Origin: Fluviicola sp.
GTDB taxonomy: Bacteria; Bacteroidota; Bacteroidia; Flavobacteriales_D; Crocinitomicaceae
Length of the DNA: 64,000 bases
Direction: 5' to 3'
Assembly (NCBI RefSeq): GCF_029266855.1
Contig: NZ_JAQSWB010000002.1
Coordinates: forward strand, 248,001 to 312,000
The position numbers and the translations under genes were made by a program. The notes beneath the pieces were generated by a model, which saw nothing but the letters and a program-made list of their open reading frames with translations, searched no databases and was not told the origin of the DNA. The first letter of the stretch is position 1. Each line of letters starts with the position of its first letter. Shown one piece after another: positions 7,878-17,666 of the stretch.

Positions 7878-8402
7878 TTATTTATCTAATGCGTTCAACA
7901 ATTCATCAATCCGATTATTTGAAAAGTCATAAACTCTGGAGCCATTTTCACCAACATGTTTCATTTTCGAACCCCTAATCCACAATTGATCTTTTTTCAG
8001 CCGTCCTTTCAAGTCATCAAACTCATTTATATAGAAACCAACTGGAATGAAATTCTCATCTAATGCGATCAGATAAAGTTTGTCAAACGCGCCTGTCCCC
8101 ATGTTCAACGGTGCAATTGTTTTTGTATTAGAATGAGCAGAAACACATTTTACTTGAACTTTGATCTTACTCTTTGTTTTAGAATCGACATATTTAATAT
8201 CATATTTCTTTCCAGATTTCGCATATTCAATCAATTCACTATTTGATAATGATTCGATATGTTTTTTTGCATAGTACTCACCTATAACACCTGTCTTCTG
8301 ATCGCCTTTTGGAAGGATTTCACTATGTTGAATCGTTTCAAATTCTTGGTAAACACTGGCATAAGCCTTTATGAGGTCTGTAATGGTTTTGTGGTTTGAC
8401 AT
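7878..8402 (-). CDS. small PD-(D/E)XK-type nuclease-like protein, last gene of the restriction locus
   Basis: The 174-residue protein starts at MSNHKTITDLIKAYASVYQEFE. A start 19 codons upstream would lie inside hsdR; the internal ATG leaves a 38-bp gap and is preferred. Sequence features are KTGVIGEYYAKKHIES, then KKYDIKYVD and KIKVQVKCVS. This is the order Glu ... Asp ... Gln-x-Lys seen in PD-(D/E)XK restriction-fold proteins. The C-terminal part (FDKLYLIALDENFIPVGFYIN) resembles domains that follow such cores. It is the last gene of a leftward operon and is probably an accessory nuclease of the type I system. DNA target and activity are unknown. Confidence 0.6.
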   Translation of the reverse strand: MSNHKTITDLIKAYASVYQEFETIQHSEILPKGDQKTGVIGEYYAKKHIESLSNSELIEYAKSGKKYDIKYVDSKTKSKIKVQVKCVSAHSNTKTIAPLNMGTGAFDKLYLIALDENFIPVGFYINEFDDLKGRLKKDQLWIRGSKMKHVGENGSRVYDFSNNRIDELLNALDK

Positions 8403-8440
8403 AGTTGTAATTATTTTTATTGTTACGATGATGGAATATT

Positions 8441-11400
8441 TTAACCTACCAACGGCCAATCCTTAAATTGACCCTCTGCTTGTTCTATAATTACTTTTAG
8501 TATGTTATCGAGTTCAGAAAATGGAACTTTACCTTTCAGTTCTTTTTTGACTGCCAAACGAATAGCTGCTTTTGCATTTTCTTTCTTCGTCCAGTCCAAT
8601 TGCAAATTTTTCTTCATAGAATCTACCACGCGGTGAACCAAATCTTGAATTGGTCCTTGTACGTTCAGTAGTTCGGTCCTAGTGGAAAGCAAATCATAAA
8701 AAGCCAATTCATCTGTAGTTAAACCAAGCTCTTTCAATCGTTTGTCTTCTTCCAAAAATTCCTTCGCAATATCCAAAAGGTGCTTGATTGTAGCAATGCT
8801 ATCTAATGTGTTTTTGTGGTAACTGCTCAAAACTTTTTCCAAAGCTTCTTTCAACGATGACATCTTGGTCATATTAGACATTAAACGTGCACGGATTTCA
8901 TCGTTGATGATGCGTTTGAGTAATTCAATTTTTACGTTTTCGTTTCCTTTGCTCTTCGCAATGGCTTGAAAACGATCGTCAATAATAGAGATGTCGGCGT
9001 TCTCAATATCATACATTTCCGCCAAATCAACAATCTTATTGGCAGCAAGGGATTTGCTAATCAAATCCTTTATAGCTTCTTGTTTCTCTCGTTTTTGTCC
9101 GGGTGGAATTTTTATTTTTCGGATAACCTGTCTGAATTTTTGAATGACTGCAACGTCTTCCTGAATTTCCCAAATCCGTTCATCTGAAGAAGTCATCGCG
9201 ACCAGTTCTGTCAACTTCCTTTCTTCTTTCAAGAAATTGTCAGTAGTGGCGTCATCTTTCATTAACGCATTTAAAACTTCACTAGACCAATTCATAGATT
9301 GGGAAGCGGAAAATTGTTCGATTTCGGTTATTTCAAATCCGCCAATTAAGGTTTTTGTAAGGTCTAATTGATTCAAACACAATTCCACTGCTCCATCCAA
9401 ATCAAATGTTGGTTTACCTGTTCCACCACCACTGGTATATTTTTTTGTTGCGTCTGCGAGAAAATTTGAAATACCAATGAAATCCACAACTAAACCGGAA
9501 GGCTTATTCTCAAAGACACGATTTACGCGCGCAATAGCTTGCATCAGGTTATGGCCTTTCATGATTTTGTCAACATACAGAGTATGCAAAACCGGAGCAT
9601 CCATTCCTGTAAGCCACATATCTCGTACGATGACCATTTTCAAAGGATCATTCGGTTTTTTCAAACGCTCTTTGATGGCTTCCATTTCATTACTGGTGCG
9701 AATGTGCGGATTCCACGCAATAGGATCTTTCGCGATGTTTCCAGTCATTATTACCGCTATTTCCGGACAACCTTCTAATGCATTCAGAGCATCAAACATT
9801 TTAACACAGTTTCTTCTGCTCATGCAAACAATCATAGCTTTCCCATCTAGTGTTTGGGTACGCTTAGTGAAATGTTCGAGAATATCTTTTGCGATTTTAT
9901 CTACTCGTTCTTTTGCTCCGGCAGCATCTTCGATAGCTGCCCAAACTGCATTGCTTTCGTCAGTGTCATCGGCAGTTGTGGCTTCCAATTCCTGGGTGTA
10001 TTCCCCTTTGATATTCATCGGAATCATCTTCGGCTCATAATAAATAGGAACCGTTGCTCCATCCTGAACCGCTTGTTTTATATCATAAGTATGTATTGTT
10101 GGACCAAATACCAGTTCGGTATCTGCATCTTTTCCATCTACCGGTGTTCCTGTAAATCCCAGGAAGGAAGCATTTGGCAGAGCGCGACGTAAATTTTGAG
10201 CGTATCCACCATCATTAAAACCGTATTGTGTTCTATGGGCTTCATCCGCCAGGACTATAATATTTGTTCGTTCTGAAAGAACCGGATGTTTATCTTCCTT
10301 CCCCCTTTGTTGTGAATCAGAGGATTGAGTTTCCCCCTTTGGAGGGGGATTAAGGGGGAGGACATCTTTTAACCGAAACTTTTCAATGGTCGTAAATATT
10401 ACCCCACCACCGTCTGAACTTAGTAAATGTCTCAATTCATCGGTTGACGTAGCGTGTTGTACATCTCCTACCAAATCTTTGCAGAAAACAAAATTATCGT
10501 AAAGTTGTTCATCCAAATCATTACGATCTACCTGAATAACAATAGTCGGATTCTTCAATTCTGCCTTGGCACGAAGAATTCCTGTAAGAATGGCCATTGA
10601 AATACTTTTTCCGGAACCCTGGGTATGCCAGATAACACCTAAGCGACCATCACCTTTCGGTTTGATATTTTCTAAGGTGCTTGAAACAGCTTTCCTGATT
10701 CCGTAGAATTGATGATACTTTGCTCCTTTCTTGATCAGTTTTCCATTGTGATCTTCATGGAAAATGAAGTTTTGGATATAGTTCAACAATACTTGCTTCG
10801 GAAATAAGCCTGCAATTAAGGTGTTTAATTGTTGTTGATTGTTTTGAATAATTGTTTCACCATCTATGGTCTTCCAGGGAGCAAACCATTGGAAAGCTGC
10901 ATGATACATTCCGTGCAATGCTTCTCTACCGTCTGAAATAATTGTCAGGGCATTGAAATCAAAAAGCTGTGGAATATCCAGGGTATAGTGCTGTATCTGA
11001 CGATGTGCTTCCTCTACGCCAACTTCCTGATCGAATAAATTCTTAAACTCGAAAAGCACCAATGGCAAACCATTAATGAATACAACTAAGTCCGTTCTTC
11101 GTTTGTTCTTTCCCAGAATAGTAATTTCATCGGAACAAATGAACGAGTTGGCCTCCGGGTTTTCATAGTTAATAGGATAGAGATGTTGTGCACATTCTTT
11201 TCCATCTTTGTCTTTCCAACTAACCGCTTTTCCTTGTGTTAATTTCAAATGAAACTCACGGTTGCGGTAATCCAGATCCATACTTTGCAGCTGAGTAAAC
11301 TCTGCCATTGCTTCATTGATGGCAGTTGATGGAATATTCGGATAAGTCTTAGTAAGAAAGGAACGCAGTTCTTCTTCCAAAACCACTTTTTTGAGGTCAC

Positions 11401-11494
11401 GCTGCAAGGCATTTCCTCCAATATAGAGATAACCCAGATCTTGCAACCATTCGATGGCTGCTTTTTGGATGGTTATTTCGAGGAGGTTGGACAT
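8441..11494 (-). CDS. hsdR: type I restriction endonuclease subunit R
   Basis: The 1017-residue motor and nuclease subunit starts at MSNLLEITIQKAAIEWLQDLGY. An upstream in-frame ATG at 11533 is unlikely because it lies inside the preceding gene. The N-terminal nuclease domain has SDEITILGKNKRRTDLVVFINGLPLVLFEFKN (Asp135, Glu149-x-Lys151). The SF2 translocase has Walker A TQGSGKS (291-297), DEAHRTQYG (417-425) and GFTGTP. In the assembled R2M2S complex it translocates and cuts unmodified DNA. Between Walker A and DEAH, residues about 378-402 (PLNPPPKGETQSSDSQQRGKEDKHP) are an insertion coded by a palindromic mini-element, described separately. The gene starts 2 bp after the stop of the gene at 11497. 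Confidence 0.96.
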   Translation of the reverse strand: MSNLLEITIQKAAIEWLQDLGYLYIGGNALQRDLKKVVLEEELRSFLTKTYPNIPSTAINEAMAEFTQLQSMDLDYRNREFHLKLTQGKAVSWKDKDGKECAQHLYPINYENPEANSFICSDEITILGKNKRRTDLVVFINGLPLVLFEFKNLFDQEVGVEEAHRQIQHYTLDIPQLFDFNALTIISDGREALHGMYHAAFQWFAPWKTIDGETIIQNNQQQLNTLIAGLFPKQVLLNYIQNFIFHEDHNGKLIKKGAKYHQFYGIRKAVSSTLENIKPKGDGRLGVIWHTQGSGKSISMAILTGILRAKAELKNPTIVIQVDRNDLDEQLYDNFVFCKDLVGDVQHATSTDELRHLLSSDGGGVIFTTIEKFRLKDVLPLNPPPKGETQSSDSQQRGKEDKHPVLSERTNIIVLADEAHRTQYGFNDGGYAQNLRRALPNASFLGFTGTPVDGKDADTELVFGPTIHTYDIKQAVQDGATVPIYYEPKMIPMNIKGEYTQELEATTADDTDESNAVWAAIEDAAGAKERVDKIAKDILEHFTKRTQTLDGKAMIVCMSRRNCVKMFDALNALEGCPEIAVIMTGNIAKDPIAWNPHIRTSNEMEAIKERLKKPNDPLKMVIVRDMWLTGMDAPVLHTLYVDKIMKGHNLMQAIARVNRVFENKPSGLVVDFIGISNFLADATKKYTSGGGTGKPTFDLDGAVELCLNQLDLTKTLIGGFEITEIEQFSASQSMNWSSEVLNALMKDDATTDNFLKEERKLTELVAMTSSDERIWEIQEDVAVIQKFRQVIRKIKIPPGQKREKQEAIKDLISKSLAANKIVDLAEMYDIENADISIIDDRFQAIAKSKGNENVKIELLKRIINDEIRARLMSNMTKMSSLKEALEKVLSSYHKNTLDSIATIKHLLDIAKEFLEEDKRLKELGLTTDELAFYDLLSTRTELLNVQGPIQDLVHRVVDSMKKNLQLDWTKKENAKAAIRLAVKKELKGKVPFSELDNILKVIIEQAEGQFKDWPLVG
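10331..10362. repeat. G/C-run palindromic mini-element inside hsdR
   Basis: A hairpin CCCCCT-TTGG-AGGGGG followed by a further AGGGGGAGGA box forms a 32-bp unit. A second copy, reverse-complemented, lies in hsdM at 16283-16314. Both are in frame with their genes and add a Pro/Gly-rich loop. They resemble the in-gene palindromic elements known from other bacteria. Confidence 0.7.
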
Positions 11495-11496
11495 GC

Positions 11497-12225
11497 TTAC
11501 TTTTTGATGATGAAAGTTAAAAACTTTCTGCAAATATCGGTAACAATATATTTCGAAGTACTTGTTCCTCTTGGGGCCGTTTTCCTAGAAATTTCCTTGA
11601 TTAATCCAAGTGAAGCTAATTCCAACATATAAAATTCAATTTCTCCGTTCTTATCTTTTGTTGCGTATTCGTTTAAAGAATCACCAGGGAAGCTTGGTTT
11701 AGTTGAATGTAGGTTCACATACGATTCCAGTATTGTATAACTCTTATGTAAACCTATACCAAGTTCAAACTGTTCGTTCTGCGCCAATTCCTGGATAAGG
11801 ATAATTTGAATCTCGTTTACTTTATCCAACAGATCCACAAACTTCATGAACAATAAGTGATCGGTATCTATTTTAATCTTCAATAGGAGAATATCCCTAT
11901 AACGGTCTTTTTTAAACTCCGATTTGGTGTTCTCCACTTTTTTCAATACCTGGTCCAGCAGGTCGCTGAACGATTCATTTTTTAAATTGTCGAAATTGAA
12001 GTCTTCACCAAATTCCGAACGGATTTTTGTGATTAAATCATCCAAAAAAGAGAGTGCACGTTTTGTTTTTACATCTGACTGGAAATTCAGGATATCATGA
12101 ATTATTGGTCCGTAAATCGGAATATTTTGAAGGATATATTTTTGAGCCAGCCCGGATGCTTGCAGCAGTGAGTCTTTCCATTCCTTGTTTTTCTCAAATT
12201 CATCATTAACGCTTAGATCGTTCAT
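11497..12225 (-). CDS. restriction-locus accessory protein, helical with winged-helix-like C-terminus
   Basis: 242 residues, no named family recognised. Residues 20-75 carry an amphipathic or weakly hydrophobic segment (AQKYILQNIPIYGPIIHDILNF, then KRALSFLDDLITKI). The middle is a charged helical bundle. The C-terminal ~60 residues (ELASLGLIKEISRKT...TSKYIVTDICRKFLTFI) look like a winged-helix unit. The first codon overlaps the hsdS stop by four bases (ATGA), so translation is probably coupled, and hsdR starts 2 bp after its stop. Its position inside the hsd operon suggests a role in restriction or its control. It could also be a separate abortive-infection-type component. Confidence 0.6.
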   Translation of the reverse strand: MNDLSVNDEFEKNKEWKDSLLQASGLAQKYILQNIPIYGPIIHDILNFQSDVKTKRALSFLDDLITKIRSEFGEDFNFDNLKNESFSDLLDQVLKKVENTKSEFKKDRYRDILLLKIKIDTDHLLFMKFVDLLDKVNEIQIILIQELAQNEQFELGIGLHKSYTILESYVNLHSTKPSFPGDSLNEYATKDKNGEIEFYMLELASLGLIKEISRKTAPRGTSTSKYIVTDICRKFLTFIIKK

Positions 12226-13397
12226 ATTGATTCGTGGATTAGTTTTTCCGCATCTTTTACACGGATTTCACCACTGATTAGTTTGGGGAGAAGGGTGTCG
12301 CGGAGAGTGGTGAGGGCTTGGTTTTCGAGGATGTTAGCATCTACTTTGTTTGCAAATCTTTGAAGCTGATCTTCTATCTTATCTTGTATTGTCAGGGGTG
12401 CAACTATAACTTTAATTTCACCTAATGCTATTCTACTTAATTCCGTTTGCCCTGTACTGCCCTCGCCTAATGATTCAACAATTTTCTCTATTGAAATCAT
12501 TAGTCTTCCGAAAGTGTATAGTCTTAATTTCTCAAGGTCACATCTAACAACAGTGACATGAGAATCAACCACAGTATCTTCGTCTAAAGATAAAATTGGG
12601 GCTAATCTACCTAGAGTTCCAACTCCAGTCGAGTTGACCAAAACATCTCCAACTCTTAACAAACGACCTTCTACCGATTTACTAATTGAATCATGACGTC
12701 TTGTTAAAGAGAAATCAATTAGGTGGTTTCTGATACATTTTTGATTGATTACTCTCACTCCTTTTTCTTCAATATATTTTGGAGAAACTCCTCTTCTCAA
12801 TTCAGTTGATATCTCAGACAAATTTTTCACCTCCCAATCTTTTGGAATCATTCCCAATTCACTTTCCACAAATTCGCTATCCTGAAACGGACCAAAATCC
12901 ACAAACCAATGCTTGTAAAGGGTCATGGCCATTTCCTCCAGGGTTTTGTTTTGTTGGAGGTTGAGCTCAATCTTATCGTCCAAGGCAGAGAGGATGGAGG
13001 CTATGGCTTTTTGTTCTTCAATTTCTGGGAAATTTAAGTTAACTTCATTTAAAGTACTCTGGGTTAATAATGGTTGGCTTGATCCGCCAGCGAATTGATT
13101 TAAATTGGTTTTTTTTAATAAATAGAAAAGAAACTTACTGTCGAAACCTTCTAAACACACCGCTTTCATTGCGTTATCTGATAACCAAATAGGTCTGTTT
13201 TCAAAGTATACCGAACCGCAATATGCACCAACTCTGCCAATAATTATAATAGTGTCAACTGAATTGAATTGGTTTGTATAACCTAAAATTCCGTTTCCTC
13301 CGTATATGGGAACTTCACCAGTTTCATTAGGTTTGGATTTACCATTGCTTATTGCTGCAACTTCAGAAAGTTTATATGTTTTCCAGTTTTCCGGCAT
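12222..13397 (-). CDS. hsdS: type I restriction specificity subunit S
   Basis: 391 residues with the standard arrangement of two target-recognition domains and two conserved helical spacers. The first TRD is at about 1-130 (MPENWKTYKLSEVAAISNGKSKP). Its helical spacer is IEEQKAIASILSALDDKIELNLQQNKTLEEMAMTLYKHWF. The second TRD begins at ELGMIPKDWEVKNLSEISTELRRGVSP. The C-terminal spacer is IQDKIEDQLQRFANKVDANILENQALTTLRDTLLPKLISGEI. It dictates the bipartite DNA site methylated by HsdM and restricted by HsdR. It starts immediately after the stop of the NTPase gene and overlaps the next gene by ATGA. The recognised sequence cannot be read from the protein. Confidence 0.95.
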   Translation of the reverse strand: MPENWKTYKLSEVAAISNGKSKPNETGEVPIYGGNGILGYTNQFNSVDTIIIIGRVGAYCGSVYFENRPIWLSDNAMKAVCLEGFDSKFLFYLLKKTNLNQFAGGSSQPLLTQSTLNEVNLNFPEIEEQKAIASILSALDDKIELNLQQNKTLEEMAMTLYKHWFVDFGPFQDSEFVESELGMIPKDWEVKNLSEISTELRRGVSPKYIEEKGVRVINQKCIRNHLIDFSLTRRHDSISKSVEGRLLRVGDVLVNSTGVGTLGRLAPILSLDEDTVVDSHVTVVRCDLEKLRLYTFGRLMISIEKIVESLGEGSTGQTELSRIALGEIKVIVAPLTIQDKIEDQLQRFANKVDANILENQALTTLRDTLLPKLISGEIRVKDAEKLIHESI

Positions 13398-16004
13398 TTA
13401 TTTCTTCTCCAGATTAATTCCTAAAATATTAGCAAGTTGTTCTGCTTTCATTTCTCCGCCGTGTTTGCTTTCCTTGTCAAAATACAATTTATCGAATTTT
13501 TCTTTGTCTTCTATTTCAGCAAAGAGTTTCTCCATTTTAGTGGGATCAGGTGAACTGAGATTACTTTTAATTTCTGATGCAATAATTGGATACGAACTTT
13601 CCAGAATGATCCAACGGAAAAGGATATCACTGTTGAATTGAATGCGTTCCGCCCATAAAATATTACGGTACATAGTATATTCATTCGCTAAGCGAATAAT
13701 AGATCGTGGGTTTGGCTCAATCAATGCATGATGTTCAGTCAACAAATGTTTGATGTCTTCCTGGTTTTCATCCAATATTTCGAGCATGACATCCGATACT
13801 TCGGCTTCAGTTGCTCCGTATCTTGTTTCTAGTTCATTTAATTGAGACATATCCGTATTTCTTCCTGTTTGATTCAAGCTTCTCAATTCCTGCTTGATAT
13901 CTTCACGTGTTCTTTTGGAGATTGCTGTTGGTTCTTCATCATTACTCCCCAAAATATAATTCCAGTACTTCTTTTTGGACGATTCGCTCATTTGAGGCAA
14001 GCGGATAGACAATTGAAAGGCTTTTTCGAGGAACAGCTCACCTAATTTTTGGTTTCCACTAACCACTTTATCAAATTCCACATAATTCTTTTCGAAACAG
14101 GTTGCGATCCAGTCCTTGTCGCCGGCCACAACATACAAAACACGCTTTTCTTTAAACAAAGTTTGAATGCCTTCAAGCAGTTCTATAGTGTATTTCTTAT
14201 TACAACGGTCTAAATCATCAATAAAAACAGCTACTTCATTTTTTTCGCGATTGATATTATTGATTAATCCCTCAAAGTGAGATTTAATGGATTGCATAGG
14301 ATCTGCAGATCTTTTTACAAAAGATTCAGCGTCGGATGCATTTCGCATAAAAAAGGGAGTAGAAACGAATTTCGACATGGTATAAATGACACCTACTGTT
14401 GCGCCAATACTAACAATGAGTTTTGCAAAAACATCCAAGGCAAGCCCTTTCGTTTCAGGATCGTTTTTAACACTTGACGGATAATTTGCTGCTGCTTCAA
14501 CAAAAGATTTACCATATATCACTAAAAGAAAAACGGAAAGTAAGAATACACCGAACTGAATTACCTTTTGCCATTTGGTGTATCTAAGAATCCGTCGTTT
14601 GTTCTCTGACCATTTCATACTTCTTCTGCTGCACCAATTTGCGTTTTCTTTTCTTATCGACTGTTGATAGATTTGGTCAATGAACGACCACCAAGGTGGA
14701 GTAATATGTTGATTTTGCCAAGCATTGTATTTTACAACAATCCAGTTTCTTTTATCCGTTTTCAGATTCTTTTCAAGAAGATTTAAAAAAGTGGATTTTC
14801 CGGATCCCCAGGAACCCTGAAGATGTACCATGAACGAGTTCCTAGGATTCTTATCGAAAATATCCTCGTTAATTAATCTCGCCAAAGATTTTGCAACCGG
14901 TTCTCGATTTAATCGATCAATCGTTTCTACAACATCAAGGTGGAAGGGGATTTTGTCATTGCTTAATTCTATTTCTGGCTCTTCCGGTAGGCGATCAAAT
15001 TCTCCACTTCTTTTAGTTGTGTAACTCATTAATGAATCGTCACTCAACAGAAAATCAAACTCACCTAAACTTAACCCATTGAGTTTTAAAAGTCTTGTAA
15101 ATTGGTTTGCGTTAAGGGTATTTAAAGGTGAGCTCCATTTACTTTTAATTAAGCTACTCTCATTGAAATAAGAATCAGACAATAATTTAGCTCTTTCAAT
15201 TCCTTCCCGAAAAAGAAAAATAACCTTAAGAGTTGCGAATTCAGCGGATTTATTGACAACAATTAAAAGACCGTAAGTTCTTTTCGTTCCTTTAACATCA
15301 AATCCAATAAGTAAATCACCAACTTCTAATTTTTTAAAATTATTTTTGAATTGACTGTTTTTGTCTCGTATTGGGTAATCATAGGTAGATCCAACTTTTA
15401 GTTGCTCTTCTTCATAAAACTGAATAGAAGCATTGATCCACCATAATGATCTTTTTGACTCAAGGATATATAGTTGGAAGTTTATTAATTCTTCACTTTC
15501 ATCATAATTTTCAGAATCAATTAGTTGTGTTTTATCCAAATCGATAAATTGAAATGAACTAGACAGTTTGTTAGAACCTTTTTGACTTTTTAACCAATCC
15601 CTTGTACAGGTAACAAAAATTGACAGGTTTGGATAATATTCTGTCAATTCAGCAACTTCTTCAATATTTCTGTCAACACGGTCAATGTTTTCAATAAACA
15701 CAGTCGTTTCTGCAGATTCGATATTATGAGATTGAAATCCAATTCTTTCTACAACTTCCTTCAGGGGAGTATGTTCATTAATTGCAAATAAGTCTATAAG
15801 AATGCTATTATCAAATTTTTGTTTGAGTTGTTCAACCAAGGTAGTCTTCCCGGTACCCCATTCACCAACTATAATAGCACGATGAAACAATTCAGGAATA
15901 TCGTCAGTTATTACAGATATGTAGTGAACACCAGAAATTAAGCTAGAATAATCTTTGGCAACCTTTAGAAGTCCAAAATCACTTGACTCTACTACTTTTT
16001 TCAT
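13398..16004 (-). CDS. KAP-family P-loop NTPase fused to an N-terminal NTPase and EVE-like domain
   Basis: 868 residues, lying between hsdM and hsdS. Module 1 (about 25-180) is a P-loop unit with Walker A GEWGTGKTT (47-55), a hydrophobic strand ending in an acidic pair VFIENIDRV (102-110) and a sensor-like VTCTRDW (131-137). Module 2 (about 188-312) begins WWINASIQFY, has LEVGDLLIGFDV (226-237) and TYGLLIVV, and ends NANQFTRLLKL. This is the pattern of EVE/PUA-like domains, which read modified bases. Module 3 (about 355-868) is a KAP NTPase with Walker A GSWGSGKST (397-405), Walker B VAVFIDDLDRC (591-601) and the late motif NPRSIIRLANEY. Two membrane helices (about 481-497 and 525-545) are inserted between its Walker motifs, as is usual for KAP proteins. 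Base composition is noticeably AT-rich. Likely role: a membrane-linked, modification-sensing defence partner. That role is inferred. Confidence 0.8.
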   Translation of the reverse strand: MKKVVESSDFGLLKVAKDYSSLISGVHYISVITDDIPELFHRAIIVGEWGTGKTTLVEQLKQKFDNSILIDLFAINEHTPLKEVVERIGFQSHNIESAETTVFIENIDRVDRNIEEVAELTEYYPNLSIFVTCTRDWLKSQKGSNKLSSSFQFIDLDKTQLIDSENYDESEELINFQLYILESKRSLWWINASIQFYEEEQLKVGSTYDYPIRDKNSQFKNNFKKLEVGDLLIGFDVKGTKRTYGLLIVVNKSAEFATLKVIFLFREGIERAKLLSDSYFNESSLIKSKWSSPLNTLNANQFTRLLKLNGLSLGEFDFLLSDDSLMSYTTKRSGEFDRLPEEPEIELSNDKIPFHLDVVETIDRLNREPVAKSLARLINEDIFDKNPRNSFMVHLQGSWGSGKSTFLNLLEKNLKTDKRNWIVVKYNAWQNQHITPPWWSFIDQIYQQSIRKENANWCSRRSMKWSENKRRILRYTKWQKVIQFGVFLLSVFLLVIYGKSFVEAAANYPSSVKNDPETKGLALDVFAKLIVSIGATVGVIYTMSKFVSTPFFMRNASDAESFVKRSADPMQSIKSHFEGLINNINREKNEVAVFIDDLDRCNKKYTIELLEGIQTLFKEKRVLYVVAGDKDWIATCFEKNYVEFDKVVSGNQKLGELFLEKAFQLSIRLPQMSESSKKKYWNYILGSNDEEPTAISKRTREDIKQELRSLNQTGRNTDMSQLNELETRYGATEAEVSDVMLEILDENQEDIKHLLTEHHALIEPNPRSIIRLANEYTMYRNILWAERIQFNSDILFRWIILESSYPIIASEIKSNLSSPDPTKMEKLFAEIEDKEKFDKLYFDKESKHGGEMKAEQLANILGINLEKK

Positions 16005-16037: not shown

Positions 16038-17666
16038 CTATTTTTTAATTTTTGAAAAATTCTTTTTTATTCGCTCTTGCAATTCCTTACCCTTCTCAAA
16101 CTGTTCCAATAACTGCGCTTGCAAACGTGCTATTTTTTCTTCAAAAGGTTCACTGTCTTTTTCAGCAGCTTCTGTTCCTACATAGATTCCGGGAGTGAGT
16201 TTGTAATCTTGTTGTTGTACTTCTTCCAGCGTTGCTGCTTTTGAGAAGCCGGGTATGTTTTCATACTTATTAGTACTGGTCATCCTCCCCCTCGGTCCCC
16301 CTCCAAAGGGGGAAGTTTGCAAATTCCGCCATAAATGATACGTTTCAGCTATTTTTTGGATATCCGCATCGGTGAATACGCGTAATTTACGGCTTGCCAT
16401 GGTTCCCATTTTGGAAGCGTCCAGAAACAAGATTTCATTGTTGCGTTTGCGGTGAACTCCGTCTTTACCATCCCGATTTTTACTCAGGATAAAAATGCAT
16501 GCAGGAATTCCTGTAGTCAGGAATAATTTATCCGGTAAACGCACAATGGCATCAATCATGGAATTGTCCACCATAAACTGGCGTACATTCTTTTCGCCTT
16601 TGTTGTTGGAAGTCATAGCGCCATTAGCCATTACAATTCCGGCTGTTCCGGTATCACTTAAATGACTCCAGAAGGTCTGCATCCACATATAATTGGCTGA
16701 ACCATCTGTAGTAAATTCATCCCGTGGCCCAAATAATCGTGGATCTGTTTCTGGTAAATCTTCCGGATGCCAGTTACTCACATTAAATGGAGGATTGGCC
16801 AGGATGAAATCTGCTTTCAGGTTCGGGAATTTATCATCTAACAAGGAGTTCCCAACTTTGATGTCAAAAGATAAACCACGCAGCATCAAATTCATCATAC
16901 ATAAACGGGATGTTTGCGCTGTCATCTCTTGTCCATAAATGGAGATGTCTTCTTTATTTCCACCATGCTCCTGAATGAACTTCAAACTTTGAACAAACAT
17001 TCCTCCGGAGCCGCAGGCAGGATCAAATATTCTTCCTTTATAGGGCTCTAATAATTCGGTTAAAACACGTACAACACTCCCTGGAGTAAAGAATTGCCCT
17101 GCACCAGAACCTTCTGCTTGTGCGAAACGCCCAATATAAAATTCATAGATTCGCCCAAGAATATCACTTTCGGGATTTTCCTTTTCAGAAAATTTCGGGT
17201 GAGAAAGTAGGTTGATAATTCCAGCAGTTTGCTTATTGGAAAGTTCACTGCGGACAAAGATGCGTGGCAGGATGTTTATCAATTGCGGATTGTATTCAAC
17301 TAATAACTCTTGAATCGTTTCAAATGCATCATCAATGATTACTTTAATGTTGTCTTGCTCTGCATTGTCTTTCAGAAATTGCCAGGAAGCGGTTTTCGGA
17401 ATCACAAACGTATTTCGTGCACGGTATTCGTCACGATCCTCCATTACATAATTCTTTTCTGAATCATCTATAGTGTAATAGGAAGATTTCGGATCATTCA
17501 GTTGTTCTTTGATTTCTTCCCGGACGATTTCAAATCGCTCACTTAAGTGTTTCAAAAACACAAGTGGCAGAATGTAGTTTTTATAATTGTTCTCAGAGAC
17601 AGCACCTCTCAATTCGTTAGCTGCGTCCCAGAGTTCTTTTTCAAAATTGATATCGGCTTTAGCCAT
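16038..17666 (-). CDS. hsdM: type I restriction DNA methyltransferase subunit M
   Basis: 542 residues. The N-terminal HsdM domain starts MAKADINFEKELWDAANELRGAVSENNYKNYILPLVFLKHLSERF. The N6-adenine methyltransferase core has the AdoMet motif DPACGSGGM (215-223), preceded by GQFFTPGSVVR, and the catalytic NPPF (291-294). With HsdS it forms the modification enzyme that protects host DNA. Residues about 449-464 (LQTSPFGGGPRGRMTS) are an insertion from a palindromic mini-element near the C-terminal YENIPGFSKAATLEEV motif. It is the first gene of the leftward operon and lies 33 bp upstream of the NTPase gene. No clear TAnnTTTG box was found upstream. Confidence 0.96.
   Translation of the reverse strand: MAKADINFEKELWDAANELRGAVSENNYKNYILPLVFLKHLSERFEIVREEIKEQLNDPKSSYYTIDDSEKNYVMEDRDEYRARNTFVIPKTASWQFLKDNAEQDNIKVIIDDAFETIQELLVEYNPQLINILPRIFVRSELSNKQTAGIINLLSHPKFSEKENPESDILGRIYEFYIGRFAQAEGSGAGQFFTPGSVVRVLTELLEPYKGRIFDPACGSGGMFVQSLKFIQEHGGNKEDISIYGQEMTAQTSRLCMMNLMLRGLSFDIKVGNSLLDDKFPNLKADFILANPPFNVSNWHPEDLPETDPRLFGPRDEFTTDGSANYMWMQTFWSHLSDTGTAGIVMANGAMTSNNKGEKNVRQFMVDNSMIDAIVRLPDKLFLTTGIPACIFILSKNRDGKDGVHRKRNNEILFLDASKMGTMASRKLRVFTDADIQKIAETYHLWRNLQTSPFGGGPRGRMTSTNKYENIPGFSKAATLEEVQQQDYKLTPGIYVGTEAAEKDSEPFEEKIARLQAQLLEQFEKGKELQERIKKNFSKIKK
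16283..16314. repeat. G/C-run palindromic mini-element inside hsdM
   Basis: This is the reverse complement of the hsdR copy at 10331-10362: CCCCCT-CCAA-AGGGGG with an adjoining CTCCCCCT-type box. It lies in frame close to the 3' end of hsdM, in a loop between conserved blocks. Confidence 0.7.

Follow-up and report, generated by a model that had tools for sequence, protein, structure and literature searches.

A putative modified-base reader joined to a membrane KAP NTPase within a type I restriction-modification operon

Introduction

Phages escape restriction by modifying their DNA, and the locus described here raises the question of what a membrane NTPase with an apparent reader of base modification might be doing inside a restriction operon. 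The window, a stretch of 64,000 nucleotides from Fluviicola sp. (contig NZ_JAQSWB010000002.1, positions 248,001 to 312,000), contains such a gene, here called EVE-KAP. An earlier sequence-only reading had described it as a double P-loop NTPase with an EVE-type segment and a KAP module, placed between hsdM and hsdS. If one operon reads modification at the membrane, escape from HsdR would trigger a second response. If true, this would provide a testable input signal for KAP defence proteins, whose trigger goes undescribed in the portions of the literature that were searched.

The EVE-KAP gene and its operon

The features on which the argument depends are as follows, in window coordinates.

13398..16004, minus strand: EVE-KAP gene, 868 aa, P-loop, EVE-like reader and KAP with inserted membrane helices
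15543..15875, minus strand: N-terminal P-loop domain, residues 44-154 (Pfam AAA_14, 6.6e-10)
15075..15455, minus strand: EVE-like reader, residues 184-310 (profile made without the window protein, E 2.5e-9)
13659..14906, minus strand: KAP NTPase domain, residues 367-782 (PF07693, 4.4e-42)
14385..14555, minus strand: two predicted membrane helices, residues 484-502 and 522-540 (Kyte-Doolittle scan)
16038..17666, minus strand: hsdM, 542 aa, type I methyltransferase subunit (Pfam N6_Mtase 4.8e-93, HsdM_N 9.8e-22)
12222..13397, minus strand: hsdS, 391 aa, specificity subunit (Pfam Methylase_S 9.7e-33, two stretches)
11497..12225, minus strand: 242-aa protein between hsdS and hsdR, 4-base overlap with hsdS
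8441..11533, minus strand: hsdR, 1030 aa as listed, type I restriction subunit (Pfam HSDR_N, SWI2_SNF2, T1RH-like_C)
7878..8459, minus strand: 193-aa protein at the end of the operon after hsdR (sequence read by eye)

The EVE-KAP frame is intact, with 868 codons running from 16004 to 13398 on the minus strand. Walker A motifs start at residue 47 (GEWGTGKT) and residue 397 (GSWGSGKS), and a DDLDR motif is found at residue 596. The KAP_NTPase model scores 144.8 bits on residues 367-782 against a Pfam cut-off of 20 and AAA_14 scores 39.5 bits on residues 44-154 against a cut-off of 27, with further AAA models also above the Pfam cut-off on both P-loops; this Pfam scan of the operon lists the best 25 of 46 families. 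The two helices predicted by hydropathy sit between the KAP Walker A motif and DDLDR. Residues 31-208 are 30% identical to the KAP protein of a related locus (L036). An AlphaFold model of the whole protein from a three-row alignment gave a mean pLDDT of 36.6 and was set aside. The earlier observation on this gene is confirmed: its coordinates were correct, the gene lying on the minus strand, and its two Walker A motifs and KAP NTPase with membrane helices are borne out by the KAP_NTPase score, the DDLDR motif and the helices within residues 484-540. The same genome also encodes a second KAP protein, a 470-aa open frame above the Pfam cut-off (L001, G000:C2).

Six genes lie in a row on the same strand in the order hsdM, EVE-KAP, hsdS, the 242-aa protein, hsdR and the 193-aa protein. 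The start codon of hsdS abuts the stop codon of EVE-KAP and a 4-base overlap joins hsdS to the gene after it, so that a single operon fits. The position between hsdM (16038-17666) and hsdS (12222-13397) was thus read correctly at the outset. Open frames are present for hsdM, hsdS and hsdR, making up an apparently complete type I restriction-modification set, and the true start of hsdR is probably a few codons further in, judged against L036. Promoter-like and terminator-like sites were no more frequent in the window than in shuffles.

Neither the 242-aa nor the 193-aa protein has an above-cut-off Pfam match or a PADLOC match. The 242-aa protein has counterparts in L036 (52% identical) and L037 (50% identical), and an alignment scan of a genome contig collection with it returned two loci, the contigs of those same loci; an alignment of the protein against the PDB gave two matches, both at chance level. 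It was rejected as a defining companion of EVE-KAP on the grounds that it is present in only 3 of the 12 loci with a close HsdM (see below), and it may be a small partner of some EVE-KAP-type systems. The 193-aa protein contains a YD...VQVK pattern that, by eye, recalls PD-(D/E)xK nucleases, and it may supply the operon with an additional nuclease.

Evidence for an EVE-like reader

The segment between the two P-loop domains had been read as EVE-type. Pfam gives no EVE match in EVE-KAP, either at full length (best 25 of 46 families listed) or in the cut-out segment; this concerns the cut-off of a single model and not a property of the fold. A profile built from six relatives, with the window protein excluded, was run against 916 ORFs together with 500 shuffles. 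It found residues 184-310 (E = 2.5e-9) over its own positions 4-136 of 145. The remaining rows at E <= 10 all came from profile members or from duplicates or fragments of either those genes or EVE-KAP, and none of the 500 shuffles was listed at that threshold. Two of the six profile members, L004 and L005, are above the Pfam EVE cut-off and both are AAA_5 (McrB-like) proteins. When residues 1-350 were searched against 395 genomes of the phylum three matched, namely the window's own genome and two others; the genomes of L004 and L005 match EVE-KAP at residues 164-250, and the matched part is the above-cut-off Pfam EVE domain. In an alignment with members cut to the segment (A3), four of the six match Pfam EVE at E <= 1, the best at 2.8e-8. 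The best two of the eight PDB matches to A3 were 1zce (E 0.049), which we take to be an EVE protein, and 6yex (E 0.066). The latter is described as VcaM4I, an EVE-HNH enzyme (PMC12707154).

Structure prediction on residues 180-316 from a nine-row alignment gave an AlphaFold model with pLDDT 66.2 and pTM 0.62. This alignment drew on viral loci L100-L106, seven of the 12 collected; left out were L107 and L108 (near-repeats of L100), L109 (no match to the profile of the second reader type, EVE2, described below) and L110 and L111 (no fitting frame). The top of 1071 Foldseek matches to the model was THYN1 (probability 0.82, E 0.056, TM 0.37, rmsd 6.7), and none of the 1071 reached E <= 0.001. This match is to the DUF55 domain of human thymocyte nuclear protein 1, described as an EVE protein (PMC7897488). 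With E only 0.056 and TM 0.37, from a middling model, the support for the PUA core of the EVE fold (five strands, with a sixth beside strand 1) is weak. We take residues 184-310 to be a diverged EVE domain mainly on sequence kinship. The EVE-type reading of the segment is upheld by the profile made without the window protein, although the segment itself goes unmatched by Pfam EVE.

Recurrence of KAP genes after hsdM

When the full EVE-KAP protein was searched against 240 genomes of the family, 27 matched, its own included, mostly by the KAP part alone. Eight regions were taken from these matches and the order hsdM-KAP-hsdS was found in three (L036, L037, L040). A search with HsdM at E <= 1e-60, in which the best candidates per genome were scored, matched 103 of 394 genomes of the phylum and 29 of 240 of the family. 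All 12 listed places with an HsdM at least about 68% identical, the window's included, were inspected. The remaining listed places are all at most 50% identical, and 32 of these, with HsdM 38-47% identical and mostly from the tops of the lists, formed the comparison set. L044 and L045 were not counted, being repeats of L036 and L037; L097, found by the reader search, stands outside the 12.

A KAP gene follows hsdM in nine of the 12 close-HsdM loci (the window, L036, L037, L040, L048, L049, L051, L052 and L053) against none of the 32 distant-HsdM loci, which were scanned after hsdM up to hsdR or for nine genes, some on short contigs and a few with no visible hsdS or hsdR. Fisher's test on these counts gives p = 3e-7 (1e-6 when L052 is omitted), a figure that is not a true probability because the rows are related. 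A Fic gene precedes the KAP gene in L040, a 316-aa gene lies between KAP and hsdS in L049, and the L052 contig stops before hsdS. KAP genes after hsdM occur in three families (f1, f6, f57) and EVE-KAP in two (f1, f57). The sequence-only reading had named absence from other hsd loci as evidence that would count against it; a KAP gene is present in the nine loci above, and six of these nine KAPs carry an EVE-like reader.

Scanning the genome contig collection with the whole EVE-KAP protein gave no match. In a plasmid collection 54 records matched, none covering 80% of the query, and the listed matches were mainly to the KAP part. The lowest listed E-value belonged to a Rhizobium leguminosarum record that lacks annotation. 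Another R. leguminosarum record has KAP genes after a RelA/SpoT-domain gene, with no hsd gene annotated within 13 kb. On this plasmid (L116:1096-4580) the RelA/SpoT-domain gene directly precedes a KAP NTPase annotated as two genes, a pair that might represent an alarmone-type effector with KAP.

The slot after hsdM and the architectures of its KAP proteins

The other three close-HsdM loci carry different cargo after hsdM, and one KAP locus carries an additional gene there.

L050, 6821-8668: SLFN/AlbA protein after hsdM
L046, 4132-5690: DUF2971 protein and a short exported-looking protein after hsdM
L047, 4120-5492: pair of small proteins, membrane-like by eye, after hsdM
L040, 4729-5868: Fic protein ahead of KAP

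On the best HsdM tree the EVE-KAP label requires four changes, two of them forced by the well supported branches alone, and 57 of 500 shuffles were as low. The membrane-KAP label requires three changes, with one so forced, and 500 of 500 shuffles were as low. On these figures a swapping of genes in the slot is probable but not established, and KAP is likely to be an exchangeable cargo of this slot in the type I locus.

Two types of reader, EVE1 and EVE2, were assigned to ten hsd-linked KAPs by leave-one-out profiles. The window protein has EVE2, L037 and L049 have EVE1, and L036, L051, L052 and L097 have both. Neither is found in L040, L048 or L053, in which the membrane helices lie ahead of the NTPase domain and not within it. 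One or both readers are therefore present in all seven KAPs in which KAP is on the C-terminal side and in none of the three with N-terminal helices. The N-terminal parts vary, with a P-loop in the window protein and L036, an HU-like domain in L037 (Pfam 7.4e-11), a PD-(D/E)xK-like part in L051, L052 and L097, and an unassigned part in L049. Full-length Pfam scans of L036, L037, L049, L051 and L052 gave no EVE match at E <= 0.1 or 0.05, and in L097 Pfam EVE was below the cut-off (E 0.014).

The PD-(D/E)xK-like N-terminus, seen by eye, is followed by two readers in L051:9228-12497, L052:287-3598 and L097:3-2396, and these chains possibly combine a nuclease, readers and a membrane motor. A VRR_NUC match to the L097 N-terminus is below the cut-off (E 0.018), and the PD-(D/E)xK reading found no support in a PDB search with the L097 part or in Pfam for L051 and L052.

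Profile-profile comparison of EVE1 and EVE2 gave no link (probability 4.5%), and for this reason the two are kept as separate types. EVE1 forms the N-terminal part of proteins with McrB motifs (identified by eye) in all five viral-contig relatives. One of five EVE1 members has a Pfam EVE match, which is weak (E 0.044), and the EVE1 alignment had one unrelated match in the PDB (E 0.75). A search with EVE1 of 299 genomes of the order matched six, comprising four known KAPs, the McrB-like L096 and a new hsdM-KAP locus (L095/L097) from another family, in which the contig ends inside KAP. The same search of 395 genomes of the class matched four, three McrB-like by motif and one short protein, with no further KAP. 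The EVE1-bearing KAP form looks rare in the sampled genomes. By profile matching, one reader type, EVE1, is common to hsd-linked KAPs and McrB-like proteins. A 143-aa protein that matches the EVE1 profile (L115:1288-1719) is fused to neither McrB nor KAP.

A possible role for EVE-KAP

We give about even chances to a reading in which EVE-KAP, an exchangeable passenger of the type I operon, is a KAP NTPase anchored in the membrane that detects modified bases through its reader and responds to modified DNA. Sequence comparison shows how the domains are ordered, that the arrangement recurs in hsd loci and that the N-termini change, and it also lends support to the sensing step; base binding, the trigger, NTP use and the effect are what we infer. 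The EVE-like domain would flip out and hold a modified base of incoming DNA that HsdR may fail to cut. Once a base is bound, the KAP NTPase would be switched at the membrane, the N-terminal module serving as the link from sensing to response. Infection would be halted there by the KAP assembly, either through a block on DNA uptake or through membrane damage. The sequence-only reading had proposed a second line against phages with modified DNA, and it is supported in part: an EVE-type segment, a KAP module with predicted membrane helices and a position flanked by hsdM and hsdS are borne out, its link to PifA is loose and the fold match weak. Together with the swapped versions in related loci, the operon suggests that a back-up defence directed at viruses whose DNA is modified is built into the locus. 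A bolder form of the proposal, possible but tentative, is that EVE-KAP belongs to a separate class of modification sensing, in which readers of the McrB type sit on a membrane KAP motor with no McrC, inside type I operons. HsdR would then deal with unmodified DNA and the membrane response with modified DNA, N-termini and readers being swapped to follow phage DNA.

The location directly against hsdS within the hsd operon, and the tie of the KAP-bearing slot to one HsdM subtype in the sample, would also suit a guard of the restriction system. PrrC, which sits in a type I locus, is reported to be activated upon inhibition of its restriction enzyme (PMC12707154). EVE-KAP might similarly be kept inactive by HsdMRS or by host methylation, its EVE domain reading the host mark, until a phage dilutes that mark or inhibits HsdR and so releases it to act at the membrane. 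We regard a guard as unlikely: the differing N-termini and the one or two readers suggest triggers that come from outside and are of several kinds, and KAP is missing from three close-HsdM loci. The combination of membrane helices, reader and hsd linkage could instead indicate a protein, not itself toxic, that tethers the type I complex to the membrane or helps to assemble it, the reader holding incoming DNA near the membrane for HsdMRS at entry; the KAPs with N-terminal helices found in this slot could do likewise. We consider this improbable, given that none of the 32 sampled distant-HsdM loci carries KAP and that KAP proteins are described as defending in the absence of hsd elsewhere (Tmn, Qat).

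The range of cargo in the slot (SLFN/AlbA, DUF2971, Fic and small membrane-like proteins) and an HsdM tree that fits exchange are what would be expected of an independent defence cargo in a permissive slot, whose EVE-like domain no longer binds bases, or binds RNA instead, and whose KAP answers a phage protein, unrelated to restriction. This seems quite improbable when all seven C-terminal KAPs keep an EVE-like reader while their front parts change. To return to the preferred reading, a membrane-bound assembly set off by modified DNA is what we infer from the literature on VcaM4I, McrB, PrrC, Tmn and QatA taken together.

Comparison with known systems

No EVE-KAP fusion is described in the literature searched, mostly the main texts of open journals, insofar as these were available. 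Within the same scope nothing was found on type I restriction together with KAP, hsdM and hsdS, or combining KAP NTPase, EVE, anti-phage and restriction. In the CoCoNuTs study, which exists in two versions, the one textual match to KAP is Kaposi. A census of EVE and DCD domains has no KAP in its main text, where EVE genes that stand alone are described as neighbours of type I systems (PMC7641849). Excerpts of a phosphorothioate-system study describe KAP NTPases in operons with Orc/CDC6 proteins and no EVE (PMC10853773), and those of a retroelement study contain one mention of KAP and none of EVE (PMC10907252). The parts of EVE-KAP are of known kinds, and their fusion and placement appear to be new.

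EVE-KAP has in common with the KAP family (PifA, Tmn, QatA), several members of which are listed as anti-phage, the KAP domain, the DDLDR motif and membrane helices between Walker A and DDLDR. The insertion of membrane helices in the NTPase domain is named in the title of the founding KAP paper. It differs in that neither a base reader nor placement between hsdM and hsdS is described for PifA, Tmn or QatA in the excerpts available. PADLOC matches EVE-KAP to PDC-S20 (6.3e-29), QatA (5.9e-26) and PifA (2.9e-21); the kinship with PifA proposed from the sequence is thus real as a profile match but loose, with PDC-S20 and QatA scoring above it. Tmn, compared by description only, is likewise a KAP NTPase with membrane parts. 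It is described as having two membrane domains and as inhibiting T2, P1, phiVi and phiX by a mechanism called unexplored (PMC11846954). Purified QatA is reported to bind DNA and seems to be a heptamer or octamer, and some Qat defence persists in its absence (PMC13279940). Membership of QatABCD was rejected on a QatA score of 104.3 bits against an NCBIfam cut-off of 600 and on the lack of PADLOC matches to the 242-aa and 193-aa proteins.

The reader of EVE-KAP is related by sequence to those of McrB-type restriction systems with EVE or YTH readers, in some of which YTH or EVE is reported to stand in for an SRA domain (PMC12707154). The C-terminal motor of EVE-KAP differs from these in being a KAP domain, predicted to be membrane-bound. 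AAA_5 scores 26.4 bits on EVE-KAP (cut-off 22) over residues 44-90 only, where AAA_14 is better. Membership of McrBC type IV was rejected, no McrC nuclease being found by Pfam in the six operon genes. VcaM4I similarly joins an EVE reader to another module, and its EVE domain is described as flipping 5mC or 5hmC into a pocket (PMC7897488); EVE-KAP differs in having no visible HNH nuclease and in placing the reader between two P-loop domains.

Accessory genes in type I loci offer a further comparison. Stand-alone EVE genes, PIN-GNAT-EVE genes and ShdA of Shield are likewise described as readers or membrane effectors in such loci (PMC7641849, PMC11090510, PMC10270631). In the EVE genes the reader is separate or joined to GNAT/PIN, whereas here it is joined to a membrane KAP, and ShdA differs in carrying an RmuC domain. 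PrrC, inside EcoPrrI, is also an accessory gene within a type I locus. EVE-KAP differs from it in having no anticodon-nuclease model among the best 25 of 46 Pfam families, ABC_tran matching on the KAP P-loop stretch only. By analogy with these systems EVE-KAP would most likely work like PrrC in its position and like McrB in its recognition.
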